Assembly (NCBI GenBank): GCA_947466535.1
Contig: CANIEV010000010.1
Location: 1 to 44,305 of the forward strand
Direction of reading: 5' to 3'
From: Betaproteobacteria bacterium
GTDB taxonomy: Bacteria > Pseudomonadota > Gammaproteobacteria > Burkholderiales > SG8-39
Length of the DNA stretch: 44,305 nt
Shown here: positions 39,017 through 42,888 of the stretch, in pieces
Position numbering within the stretch: the first letter of the stretch is position 1
Layout of the letters: each line of letters opens with the position of its first letter
The notes under the pieces: model-generated
Database searches by the model: none
What the model was told of the DNA's origin: nothing
The model's input: the letters and a program-made list of their open reading frames with translations, nothing else
Position numbers and translations under genes: made by a program

Positions 39017-39709
39017 CTAGAAATCCCTGATCTGTGTTTTCTCGTAGACGGTGACGATGCGCCTGCCGTCCCAGCAGTAGCCAAAGTGCGGGCCTTGCAC
39101 GCAGTTCGAAAGCACTGGCGCCCGGAACACGCCGGCGCATTCGCCGCCCGGATCGCGCACGCTGTCGTACACGACACCGTTCGAACCCGCACTGCGCAAG
39201 CTCCTGCCCATCGCTTGGCCGGGGGCATGGTTCACCGGGTCGTAGACGTCTGCCAGATCGCGCCGTCCTCGTATGTCGTGAAGCTCGCCGCGAAGATCGG
39301 CATAGTAGGCGCGCATGTCGATCTCGATCGGGCCTTCCCGGGTTCGTTCAAGAAACTGTGCACGGTGATGCATCGTTTCGGCGATCGCGGTGTCGAGCGA
39401 ACGCGCCGCGTAGTACACGCCCCATGTGCCGTCGCTGAAGCGGCTGCCTTCCGGGTTGAGATGCGTGAACGCGGCCATGATTGGCTGGGTCCCGGGTCCG
39501 GTGATGCGGTCTTCCGGCGTCACCAGCGAGAGTTGTCCCGCTTCCTGCCGCAGGCGCGGATTGGTCATGGCTTCGACCGCGAAAACCGAATCGAGATCCT
39601 CGGGCGAGGCCACCCGGTCATACAGTCCTGTGGGCGGAAAGCGGCTGGGGATCAGCCGGTAACAGGGCGTCCACGCCACTGCAGACACGGCAGGCACTAC
39701 AGCGATCAA
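39017..39709 (-). CDS. RES-domain toxin of a type II toxin-antitoxin system
   Basis: A RES-family toxin, about 230 residues. Members of this family break down cellular NAD+ and are named for conserved Arg, Glu and Ser. The typical core is visible: PCYRLIPSRFPPTGLYD at the start, then GSRFSDGTWGVYYAARSLDTAIAE (the conserved Arg, Tyr and Glu region, split in two by the turn), and GVVYDSVRDPGGECAGVFR (conserved Ser). The frame stays open upstream through the antitoxin gene, so the start is uncertain. I chose the TTG at 39709, which overlaps the antitoxin stop as TTGA and gives a typical length; a GTG at 39697 is also possible. Order antitoxin then toxin is usual. Confidence 0.88.
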   Translation of the reverse strand: MIAVVPAVSAVAWTPCYRLIPSRFPPTGLYDRVASPEDLDSVFAVEAMTNPRLRQEAGQLSLVTPEDRITGPGTQPIMAAFTHLNPEGSRFSDGTWGVYYAARSLDTAIAETMHHRAQFLERTREGPIEIDMRAYYADLRGELHDIRGRRDLADVYDPVNHAPGQAMGRSLRSAGSNGVVYDSVRDPGGECAGVFRAPVLSNCVQGPHFGYCWDGRRIVTVYEKTQIRDF

Positions 39710-40113
39710 GCCCAGCCGCCCCGTTGGGCATCGAGATACTGGCGCACGACATAAAGGTCCGACACTTGGCCCGAGAGCATGCGTTCGAGTGCGCTGCGTC
39801 CACCGAACATCGGCGCGGTATTCGGCTTGCGCACCCAGGTATCCGCCGCTGCCTCCTGCGGCAGCAGCACCTGCAGCGCCGAATAGATGCCGAAGATATA
39901 GGAAAGCCGCTCCAGCGTGTCCTGAGGCAGGGTCAGGTCCGTGATCTGTTTCCATCGGTAGAACGTTGATTTCGATGGATTTCCGAGCAGCGCTATCTGC
40001 TCCTTGCCGGAAAGGTTCCAAGCATCCGCAATGCGAAAGAAGGTCCGCAAAGCGGCACCGGAGACCTTGTGCGAGTCGAGTGCAGTGGGGGCTTCGTTCA
40101 GAACAGCGGACAT
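39706..40113 (-). CDS. Xre/MbcA/ParS-type antitoxin (DUF2384)
   Basis: The 135-residue antitoxin for the RES toxin. The N-terminal half is an Xre-like helix-turn-helix (FFRIADAWNLSGKEQIALLG, then STFYRWKQ). The C-terminal half has the DUF2384 pattern, with LERLSYIFGIYSAL, PNTAPMFGGRSALERML and VVRQYLDAQRGGW. This region blocks the toxin active site in characterised relatives. The ATG at 40113 has AGGA upstream. The stop overlaps the toxin start, so the pair is translationally coupled. A near-perfect inverted repeat just upstream (40,121-40,161) is the likely site of autorepression by the complex. Confidence 0.93.
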   Translation of the reverse strand: MSAVLNEAPTALDSHKVSGAALRTFFRIADAWNLSGKEQIALLGNPSKSTFYRWKQITDLTLPQDTLERLSYIFGIYSALQVLLPQEAAADTWVRKPNTAPMFGGRSALERMLSGQVSDLYVVRQYLDAQRGGWA

Positions 40114-40120
40114 GGCGAAT

Positions 40121-40161
40121 TCCTAAAATGGGATCATTTAAAGATATATTCCATATTAGGA
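40121..40161. promoter_or_regulatory. Inverted-repeat operator of the toxin-antitoxin operon
   Basis: TCCTAAAATGGGAT (40121-40134) and ATTCCATATTAGGA (40148-40161) are inverted arms matching at 12 of 14 positions, with a 13-base AT-rich spacer. The site begins eight bases before the antitoxin ATG at 40113. Type II antitoxins with helix-turn-helix domains commonly repress their own operon at such dyads, so this is a good candidate operator overlapping the promoter. Confidence 0.7.
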
Positions 40162-40388
40162 CAATAAGCGATGCGGATCAACAGTCGGCCAGACCCCTCG
40201 ACTTCCACAGCCTAGGCAATGCGCTATATAAATCGTCTGCCGGCTGACTCCTTGAAAGAGTCGCGGTTTGTGGCGACGACATCCACATGCATTTAGGGTG
40301 GATCTTCCCATGAGCCTGCGACCGTGGAGAATTCAGGCGGCGACTCTAGCAGCCGGGGTTCGGTTGCTATTGAACAGGGGCCTCGTGC

Positions 40389-40826
40389 ATGACGCGACTT
40401 TCCGGTTACAGGATCTGCGCCTGTCCACTCTGTGGACAGGAACGTCTTTTCCCCGCATACGGGTCGATCAATCTGACGACTGCCATACCGGACGATGTGT
40501 TCGAGTCGATGGGCCGGCCAGTGCAATGCGGTTGCGGAAATCGATTCTCGGTCGAGGAGGGCCGGTTTGTACGATGGGCAAAGGAAGTACTTTTTTGTCG
40601 GAATAACACGGAGTCGGCGAGATTTGTTCATGTCGTATCACGGCGTACCGCATCCGTATCTGAAAGAGATGCCGAAGGAGTATTTCGTGTTCGAGAAGAT
40701 CCCGTAAGCGCATATGGAATACGTATTGCTTACGCGATGGGAGTGGCAAATTTTATGTTCTCAGGGAAGCATTTGTATGCTGCGTGTGAGGGTGTGCGCA
40801 ATCTCGGAAAGCAGTGCTCCATCTGA
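40389..40826 (+). CDS. Small CpXC-like zinc-ribbon protein, probably frameshifted
   Basis: The first 64 codons encode a likely zinc ribbon: Cys10, Cys12, Cys15 (RICACPLCGQE) and Cys47, Cys49 (PVQCGCGNRF), with INLTTAIPDDVF between, resembling the CpXC family. Codons here favour G or C in third position. From about 40,600 the same frame loses that preference. The neighbouring frame gains it and reads RRDLFMSYHGVPHPYLKEMP (40597-40656) and on to a stop at 40705-40707. A frameshift near the T-rich ACTTTTTTGTCGG at about 40,587-40,600 would join the parts into a protein of about 105 residues. Either the gene is decayed or the sequence has an error. No function is assigned. The 40,162-40,388 stretch before it shows nothing recognisable. 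Confidence 0.4.
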   Translation: MTRLSGYRICACPLCGQERLFPAYGSINLTTAIPDDVFESMGRPVQCGCGNRFSVEEGRFVRWAKEVLFCRNNTESARFVHVVSRRTASVSERDAEGVFRVREDPVSAYGIRIAYAMGVANFMFSGKHLYAACEGVRNLGKQCSI

Positions 40827-41943
40827 TGTATACAAATTATTCAAGATGGCGCCCCAGTTTAATCTGGGCGATGCCCATGCATTTGTAATTGCAGAGCTTT
40901 CGAATGGATGGCGAGTATCGGATACGCGAAGTCAATTTGGCGCCAGTGAGGTTGTCGAGGCGCTAAGCTTAGAGTCGGTAGTGTGCTTTTTCCCTTTAAC
41001 TTCAGATGAATTGGACGATCTTCAGGAAAAGGCGGTCGCTGGCGCGATATTGGTCGAGAGTCCAAGATTCGAGCATCAGTGGTTGGAATGGGTTAGTGAG
41101 AAGACAAAGGACTTGGTTTCGAAGTCTTCTGAAAAATTTGTGCGCGCTCTCGGTTTGGATGAATGGCTTTTTGAGGTCTCTGAGGCAATCAATAAAGCAA
41201 AAGACTTTGATGAAAATGATCCTTCGAATCACGGTAGCCTGATCGGATTATTTCTCAGCAATGAAAAGAAGATAGTAAAAGATGACCAAGCAAGATCAAA
41301 GGAAGGAACGTGCGCGCACGCGATTGCATGTGCAACTTTGTGGGCAAGTTTCGTCTGCGGTCGAACTGTTCCAGAAAATGATTCCGATTTACGGAAGCGA
41401 TTGGATATTCGATTAGAGCGGTACCTTGAGTGGCAATGCAGGGAGCCAAATTATTTGACCTCAGGTTTTCACCGCGAATTACAGGCACTTGAGCAAGAGG
41501 CTCCACGCGCATTTAACGAACTGCTAACACCAACAGGGCTCGGGATATACCTTCGCTTCTCAGTGGCAATTCAGTCCAGGCTACCGCCAGAGCCAACCGA
41601 CTTGGTGGCTGCCATCCTGAGGCTGCAACAGCTGGACGGTGGTCTAGCAGCAGCGGCATGCGCCTATTTAATCGGCCCCAAATTAACGCCACAGTTCATT
41701 CACTCAATTGCCATAGCGCTTGATGGAGAACGGTATCCATCAGTGGATTCGGTTTTAGCTGCGAAATCAATGGGGTTGGGGACGTTGGACACTTTACGGA
41801 AGCGTATCTCGGACTTGAAGACTGATTTAGACATTGACGAGACCGATATTGAGGCGGCAGAGAATCATTCCGAAGTGCATCAATCGGAAGCGGCTAGAAC
41901 ATCTGTTGCAGTAGTGGATGCTGACCCTGATAAAAAGGTTTAA
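40714..41943 (+). CDS. Unrecognised protein in an AT-richer segment
   Basis: An open frame for 409 residues. I do not recognise a family. The predicted protein is soluble, acidic and largely helical, with no signal peptide or membrane helix; a possible coiled or charged C-terminus reads KRISDLKTDLDIDETDIEAAE. The first about 35 residues (rich in Trp, Cys, Arg) look unlike the rest and overlap another open frame, so the true start may be the ATG at 40846 (MAPQFNLGDAHAF), or the gene may be joined by a frameshift to upstream sequence. Base composition is visibly less GC-rich than the flanking catabolic genes, with many A/T-ending codons. This suggests acquisition from another genome. It lies next to a toxin-antitoxin pair. 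Confidence 0.6.
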   Translation: MEYVLLTRWEWQILCSQGSICMLRVRVCAISESSAPSDVYKLFKMAPQFNLGDAHAFVIAELSNGWRVSDTRSQFGASEVVEALSLESVVCFFPLTSDELDDLQEKAVAGAILVESPRFEHQWLEWVSEKTKDLVSKSSEKFVRALGLDEWLFEVSEAINKAKDFDENDPSNHGSLIGLFLSNEKKIVKDDQARSKEGTCAHAIACATLWASFVCGRTVPENDSDLRKRLDIRLERYLEWQCREPNYLTSGFHRELQALEQEAPRAFNELLTPTGLGIYLRFSVAIQSRLPPEPTDLVAAILRLQQLDGGLAAAACAYLIGPKLTPQFIHSIAIALDGERYPSVDSVLAAKSMGLGTLDTLRKRISDLKTDLDIDETDIEAAENHSEVHQSEAARTSVAVVDADPDKKV

Positions 41944-42048
41944 GTGAATAGATCGCATCGACGGATATGACATTCGTGCTTCTGCGACGCTAGGGAATAC
42001 TGCCAACGTTTTAGTGACGGTCTGTGACCCCTACACATGCGGTACGTC

Positions 42049-42888
42049 TCAAAGCGCCCCCGCCGCGAACGTATTGCAGTCCCGCGTCCGGCCCGAGTCC
42101 AGGCCCTTTTTGAACCAGCGCACGCGCTGCTCGGACGATCCGTGGGTAAAGGATTCGGGCACGACGCGGCCCTGGCTTTTCTGCTGCAGGCGGTCATCGC
42201 CAATGGCGGTGGCGGCATTGAGCGCTTCGGCGATGTCGCCCGGGTCCAGTTGATTCAGGGTGCCGGCATGGTTGCCCCAAACGCCGGCGTAGCAGTCGGC
42301 CTGCAGTTCCATGCGCACCGACGTCTGATTGGCTTGCGCTTTGGAGGCGCCCTCGCGCGCGCTCGCCATCTTCTGGAAGGTGCCGGTGAGCTTCTGCACG
42401 TGATGTCCCACTTCGTGCGCGATCACGTAGGCCTGTGCAAAGTCGCCCGGGGCCCGAAAGCGGCTTTGCAACTCGCGGAAGAACGCGAGATCGATATAGA
42501 GTTTCTCGTCGCCGGAGCAATAAAAGGGGCCGGTGGCGGATTGCGCCATGCCGCAGGCGGAACGTACCTGCCCGTCGAACAGGACCAGGGTGGGCGGACG
42601 GTACTCGGCGTTCGACTGCTCAAAGATCTTGCCCCAGACGGCTTCGGTGCTTCCGAGGACACGGGCGACAAACTGACCCGTCGCGTCGGCGGGTGCGCCT
42701 TTGGTCACTTTCCTCGTCTCGGCCTGGGGCATGACCTGTTCGGCCACATTCATCACCGTGCTCGGGTCGAACCCCAGGAAGTAGGCGACGACGGCAATCA
42801 CGATGCCACCGACGCCCAGGCCGCCGCCAATGCCGATGCCGCGCCGGTCTTCGACATTACTGCTGGGCTGCTGGTCGCCTAGTTGCAT
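42049..42888 (-). CDS. ypfJ: Neutral zinc metallopeptidase, YpfJ family
   Basis: A 279-residue membrane-anchored protein of the YpfJ/KPN_02809 neutral zinc metallopeptidase family. The N-terminus NVEDRRGIGIGGGLGVGG leads into one membrane helix (about residues 19-39). The zinc motif is HEVGHH (His158, Glu159, His162), and the Glu or Asp-containing RMELQADCYAGVW gives the third ligand region. Two Cys pairs (SACG ... FYCS and ADCYAG ... RDCN) suggest disulfides in a periplasmic domain. Length matches the family. The biological substrate of YpfJ proteins is unknown. It ends 105 bases after the converging unrecognised gene and is divergent from the monooxygenase gene. Confidence 0.94.
   Translation of the reverse strand: MQLGDQQPSSNVEDRRGIGIGGGLGVGGIVIAVVAYFLGFDPSTVMNVAEQVMPQAETRKVTKGAPADATGQFVARVLGSTEAVWGKIFEQSNAEYRPPTLVLFDGQVRSACGMAQSATGPFYCSGDEKLYIDLAFFRELQSRFRAPGDFAQAYVIAHEVGHHVQKLTGTFQKMASAREGASKAQANQTSVRMELQADCYAGVWGNHAGTLNQLDPGDIAEALNAATAIGDDRLQQKSQGRVVPESFTHGSSEQRVRWFKKGLDSGRTRDCNTFAAGAL

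Follow-up and report, generated by a model that had tools for sequence, protein, structure and literature searches.

An AT-rich segment of a betaproteobacterial MAG carries the probable remnant of a helicase-HP-NYN cassette

The window analyzed here is a stretch of 44,305 nt that makes up a whole contig of a 4.63-Mb metagenome-assembled genome (MAG; 341 contigs, 90% complete, 5% contaminated). Three open reading frames (ORFs) were found in the segment of interest, at 40389-40826 (145 aa), 40495-40707 (70 aa), and 40714-41943 (409 aa), and three coding traces were found to abut within 350 bases. The gene for the 409-aa protein (HP) was the AT-richest part of the window, with a GC content of 0.478 compared with a mean of 0.642 (sd 0.018, minimum 0.589) for 1230-b windows outside of 40,000-42,050. 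Its stop-free run of 411 codons was far beyond chance, as the maximum reached in 500 Markov-1 simulations of matching composition was 250 codons. Both the ORF positions and the dip in GC confirm the description given in an earlier note on this DNA, that of an AT-richer segment with three overlapping frames.

Frame 0 at 40389-40584 (+) was identified as the 5′ portion of a zinc-ribbon gene (CPLCG...CGCG) that has been truncated, with 56% identity over 65 aa to a gene of a related genome (G021). This homologue is a separate, stand-alone gene, and the similarity to it was found to stop at 'WAK', near 40576-40584. The 3′ stub of a UvrD-like SF1 helicase was identified in frame +1 at 40577-40707 (+), spanning the motif VI region to the stop codon (the last ~43 codons) and displaying 90% identity over 41 aa to the helicase of locus L016 and 76% identity over 49 aa to that of genome G006. 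Only residues ~346-394 of the helicase are present in the window. When compared with the intact relatives, nucleotide similarity had an abrupt onset at 40577 and extended beyond the helicase stop codon and into the 409-aa gene. At the presumed deletion junction (40573-40586, +), the zinc-ribbon homologue (GGATGGGCCAAGGA) and the helicase homologue (GAATGGCAGCGAAAG) were both found to align to the overlap zone GATGGGCAAAGGAA. The overlap of these two unrelated genes amounts to 10-13 bp that resemble both parents, which fits a deletion between short similar sequences. Past the junction, frame 0 (40585-40826, +; GC3 0.40) overlaps homologous frame-1 coding throughout and is a chance continuation through the helicase and 409-aa gene sequence. 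The helicase TAA (40705-40707) and the ATG of the 409-aa gene (40714) form an ordinary stop/start boundary; the actual break is near 40577, not 40707. The suggestion of a junction between foreign and native DNA therefore holds in that a junction exists and the 409-aa gene is foreign in composition, but the border is not at 40,707: the helicase stub and the 409-aa gene are parts of one AT-rich module. What had been read as native-like codons up to 40,707 is, from ~40577 onward, the C-terminus of a foreign helicase. A search of the PDB with the helicase stub returned no match.

Other features were observed around these frames, including: (i) a strong 9-bp hairpin, CCTGTCCAC TCT GTGGACAGG, at 40420-40440 (+) in the 5′-terminal part of the zinc-ribbon gene, terminator-like with a T-rich tract after it, where the hairpin search gave 3 observed compared with 2.1 expected in shuffles; and (ii) an imperfect palindrome, CGCATATGGAATACGTATTGCTTACGCG, at 40709-40736, which spans the start codon of the 409-aa gene and could be due to chance or be regulatory. 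In G021, the zinc-ribbon homologue (L020, G021:C63) is located near a gene for an HTH-plus-nucleotidyltransferase-like protein, in a toxin-antitoxin-like neighborhood.

The 409-aa gene (40714-41943, +) is intact and corresponds to the middle component of a cassette, with full-length identities of 55% and 54% to its homologues at L015 and L016, respectively. A homologue was detected in one of 149 related genomes (G006, 55% identical across residues 1-409), where it belongs to an AT-rich module and the surrounding genes differ, which speaks against the alternative that this gene order is ancestral. The single same-genus genome available (71% complete) was without the gene. The 409-aa protein belonged to no family in Pfam, NCBIfam, PADLOC, or PHROGs, with its match to NCBIfam NifU_clost (0.028) far below the cut-off, and it had no match among plasmids or viral contigs. 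Genome contigs likewise gave no match when scanned with short exact peptide patterns, an insensitive search that missed the G006 and L016 homologues. An AlphaFold model of HP based on a three-row alignment was unusable (mean pLDDT 37.5).

Three-way comparison of the HP genes revealed changes mostly at the third codon position, with dN of 0.26-0.39 and dS of 1.0-2.1. Pairwise dN/dS was about 0.17-0.28, a value that averages over pre-deletion time and so reports constraint on the family, not on the period after the deletion. Judged from these substitution patterns, the 409-aa frame is a real gene of a constrained family under purifying selection. Of the core residues common to a distant homologue in genome G692, 44 of 57 were kept in the window copy compared with 44 of 51-53 in the copies from intact cassettes. 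The window protein had the most lineage-specific substitutions (73 vs 37 and 41), though with three unrooted taxa rate is inseparable from distance.

Intact copies of the cassette were found at two loci only, both in MAGs: G006/L015 (CAIXPL010000006.1) and L016 (SYOC01000161.1). The gene order in both was helicase (371-395 aa), HP (415 aa), and coiled-coil/NYN protein (592-593 aa), with an 8-bp overlap between the helicase and HP genes. The G006 row comprises an HTH_17 (excisionase/MerR-like) gene followed by genes for a 395-aa UvrD-like helicase, the 415-aa HP, and a 593-aa coiled-coil protein, the last with a C-terminal NYN_YacP domain (1.5e-8). Acidic residues expected of a PIN-like fold (D463, D512, D539, D564, and D566) were conserved in both NYN proteins. 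When L016 was compared with G006, the helicases matched at 86% and the NYN proteins at 57%. In both relatives the module was AT-richer than its surroundings, as in the window. The HP start (MEYV) was conserved in two relatives, and the helicase tail of the window ends at the conserved C-terminus of the intact helicases. The L016 cassette adjoins an AlpA-type gene and a primase-like gene. Two uncharacterized genes lie directly upstream of it (L016 1-1622), one with cysteine pairs and one matching PHROG 37634 (unknown function); these may represent additional parts of the cassette or the backbone of the element. Scans of viral contigs with the helicase and NYN proteins revealed weak relatives or none.

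In the window, HP directly follows the helicase stop, the same position as in the G006 and L016 cassettes. A complete SF1 helicase with Walker A/B motifs was absent, and no other close copy was detected in the binned contigs of the genome assembly. The coiled-coil/NYN gene was also absent from the assembly, in a search that was run without an in-genome positive control and is informative only for close homologues; when both intact NYN proteins served as tblastn queries against the window, no credible remnant was revealed. With helicase and NYN gene absent, the locus is to be regarded as a remnant and not as a working member of the cassette family. At the right edge of the segment (41944-42048), where the NYN gene would be expected, it was absent, and no repeat or att-like sequence was found. 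Beyond this edge lies a native gene for a neutral zinc metallopeptidase (42049-42888, −; PF04228, 4.5e-110; GC 0.65), with a 78% identical homologue in genome G009. The G009 gene shared no further neighbors with the window, and neither an undeleted ancestor nor an empty site was found for the locus. Near the segment, searches revealed no att repeats, tRNA, Rfam element, or convincing flanking direct repeat.

To the left, an ordinary RES (4.5e-31)/Xre toxin-antitoxin pair with a GC of 0.60-0.64 is encoded at 39017-40113 (−), divergent from the zinc-ribbon gene. Its Xre/MbcA/ParS-type antitoxin gene (39706-40113, −; PF09722, 1.3e-12; PF20432, 2.4e-10; GC 0.60) is a neighbor outside the module. 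No RES/Xre genes were recognized beside the intact copies in the DNA examined, where the upstream side of G006 ends at a contig end and L016 is 7.2 kb. The idea that toxin-antitoxin neighbors mark a defense or mobile island fared unevenly: the relatives of the module do reside in mobile or defense-type contexts, but the RES/Xre pair is on the opposite strand, has a near-native GC, and showed no tie to the module in the DNA examined.

When about 1,170 genomes at the order, class, and phylum level were searched for the helicase, one more clear relative was identified, in G692 (L025, G692:C17, 1627-13675, −). This compact row, probably a five-gene defense operon, encodes a Type III methyltransferase with a SAP domain, a BPTD_3080-family restriction enzyme, a HEPN_Swt1-Hsp70-repeat protein, the helicase, and a 525-aa protein. 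On the Antarctobacter plasmid pSMS3-3, genes for a HEPN-Hsp70 protein, a helicase, and a 457-aa protein are bounded by IS elements. The 525-aa and 457-aa proteins were homologous (28%, shuffle z 22.9), and their joint profile matched the 409-aa family (hhalign 95.2%, E 2.6e-8). The Antarctobacter protein was significant against the 409-aa family profile only jointly with the G692 protein and not alone; the window protein alone scored a z of 8.8 against the G692 protein. Both Hsp70 proteins contain an R-x4-H HEPN-type motif (RNRYAH and RNRHAH) of the form given for HEPN (PMC3710099). Compared with the window-type cassette, the HEPN_Swt1-Hsp70/SF1 helicase/HP triad has a helicase that is 33-39% identical, an HP that is homologous by profile, and the same helicase-HP order; its predicted RNase is the upstream HEPN-Hsp70 protein, whereas that of the window-type cassette is the downstream coiled-coil/NYN protein. 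Since the helicase and HP are kept across both forms, they form the constant part and the predicted RNase the variable part. A locus on the Persicobacter (Bacteroidota) plasmid pPP6 (L029, 5935-11335) encodes an Hsp70 family protein, a short SF1 helicase, and a 596-aa protein in the same order; it was set aside, as its third protein was not alignable to the 409-aa family.

None of the named systems in PADLOC, NCBIfam, or the literature searched corresponded to the cassette, and models for HP and the NYN protein are missing from PADLOC. Similarity to Gabija was noted in that the helicase matched GajB profiles (1.1e-17 in G006 and 5.5e-26 in G692). However, these matches were partial and unspecific, with Nhi, AbiO, and RT-associated helicases matching too (Nhi and AbiO equally well in G006), and the cassette helicase (371-395 aa) is shorter than GajB. 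GajA (OLD-family ATPase/TOPRIM nuclease) had no match among the cassette genes of G006 and G692, and no such Pfam domain was found in the G006, G692, and L016 neighbors scanned. CoCoNuTs bring together an SF1 helicase, an Hsp70-like protein, and a HEPN RNase in one neighborhood, with coiled coils (PMC11090510). Types II and III are defined by McrB-type GTPases and have a UPF1-like helicase, CnuH (PMC11090510); no McrB-like GTPase, the CoCoNuT hallmark, was recognized among the module genes and neighbors scanned. In MoxR-vWA ternary conflict systems, an SF1 helicase accompanies a PIN nuclease (PMC7159879), a pairing with a PIN-fold nuclease that is shared here, yet no MoxR AAA+ or vWA gene was recognized in the loci of this study. 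We call the cassette an uncatalogued variant of helicase-nuclease conflict cassettes, represented in the window by a remnant.

Other explanations of the segment were weighed against a decayed cassette. The earlier note had suggested one or two frameshifts, and three frames abutting within 350 bases could indeed be read as the result of sequencing errors in a single gene that encodes zinc ribbon, helicase tail, and 409-aa protein together. This is extremely unlikely: the zinc-ribbon homologue is a separate gene, the helicase tail shares its C-terminus with the intact helicases, and the gene after it begins with the MEYV conserved in two relatives. No sign of a base-calling frameshift was seen, and none needs to be assumed, as each of the two frames comes from a different gene. 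An assembly artefact, in which strain variants were collapsed or molecules misjoined at ~40577 and the organism really has a complete cassette, we regard as improbable, if less so. Strain-variable islands are common in metagenomes, the MAG is fragmented, incomplete, and partly contaminated, and the junction offers a short stretch of similarity on which an assembler could go wrong. Against this, native-like genes are present on both flanks, such that a simple chimera would require two false joins, and the helicase body and NYN gene were on no other contig among the binned contigs searched.

Somewhat less doubtful, though still not the likelier reading, is a working reduced locus, in which HP would keep a function of its own, for instance by serving as a decoy or by acting in trans with a related helicase, and might be expressed from the promoter of the zinc-ribbon gene. 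The ORF intact over 409 codons, the pairwise dN/dS of about 0.2, and core residues kept nearly as well as in the intact cassettes are consistent with this scenario. However, the dN/dS value includes the time before the deletion, the excess of lineage-specific substitutions in the window HP points the other way (within the bounds of three unrooted taxa), and the genome assembly no longer contains the helicase and nuclease.

Overall, these results suggest with good confidence that the segment is what remains of a helicase-HP-NYN cassette that was acquired horizontally and has since decayed, with a deletion joining it to a zinc-ribbon gene and HP left as an intact orphan. A single deletion, its ends lying within a few similar bases, would have joined the upstream zinc-ribbon gene to the last ~43 helicase codons; the NYN gene would have been lost as well, with the 409-aa gene remaining. 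For the intact cassette an anti-invader role is most likely, favored by the context of restriction-modification, mobile elements, and HEPN/NYN domains. Such a role agrees with the SF1-PIN pairs known from conflict systems (PMC7159879) and with the way CoCoNuTs group an SF1 helicase, Hsp70, and HEPN (PMC11090510), apart from the McrB GTPase of the latter. The helicase may engage, load on, or remodel invader nucleic acid, the 409-aa protein may act as an adaptor or regulator coupling the helicase to the effector, and the NYN domain, a predicted PIN-like RNase, may cut RNA. In the sister variant, the HEPN-Hsp70 protein would cut RNA as the effector in place of NYN. The window locus cannot work by this proposed mechanism, because its helicase and nuclease are gone.

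Taken alone, the window presents a broken locus of modest interest, which led to a rare cassette and its HEPN-Hsp70 sister form. We tentatively propose, as a possibility somewhat short of even, that an unrecognized defense class is built around the 409-aa family as its common core, with a short SF1 helicase and HP combined with interchangeable RNase effectors (NYN coiled-coil or HEPN-Hsp70), and that the window copy represents such a system being lost through a deletion that takes helicase and nuclease but leaves the adaptor. That the predicted RNase changes while the helicase and its partner protein stay constant is a testable hint of modular anti-invader design.
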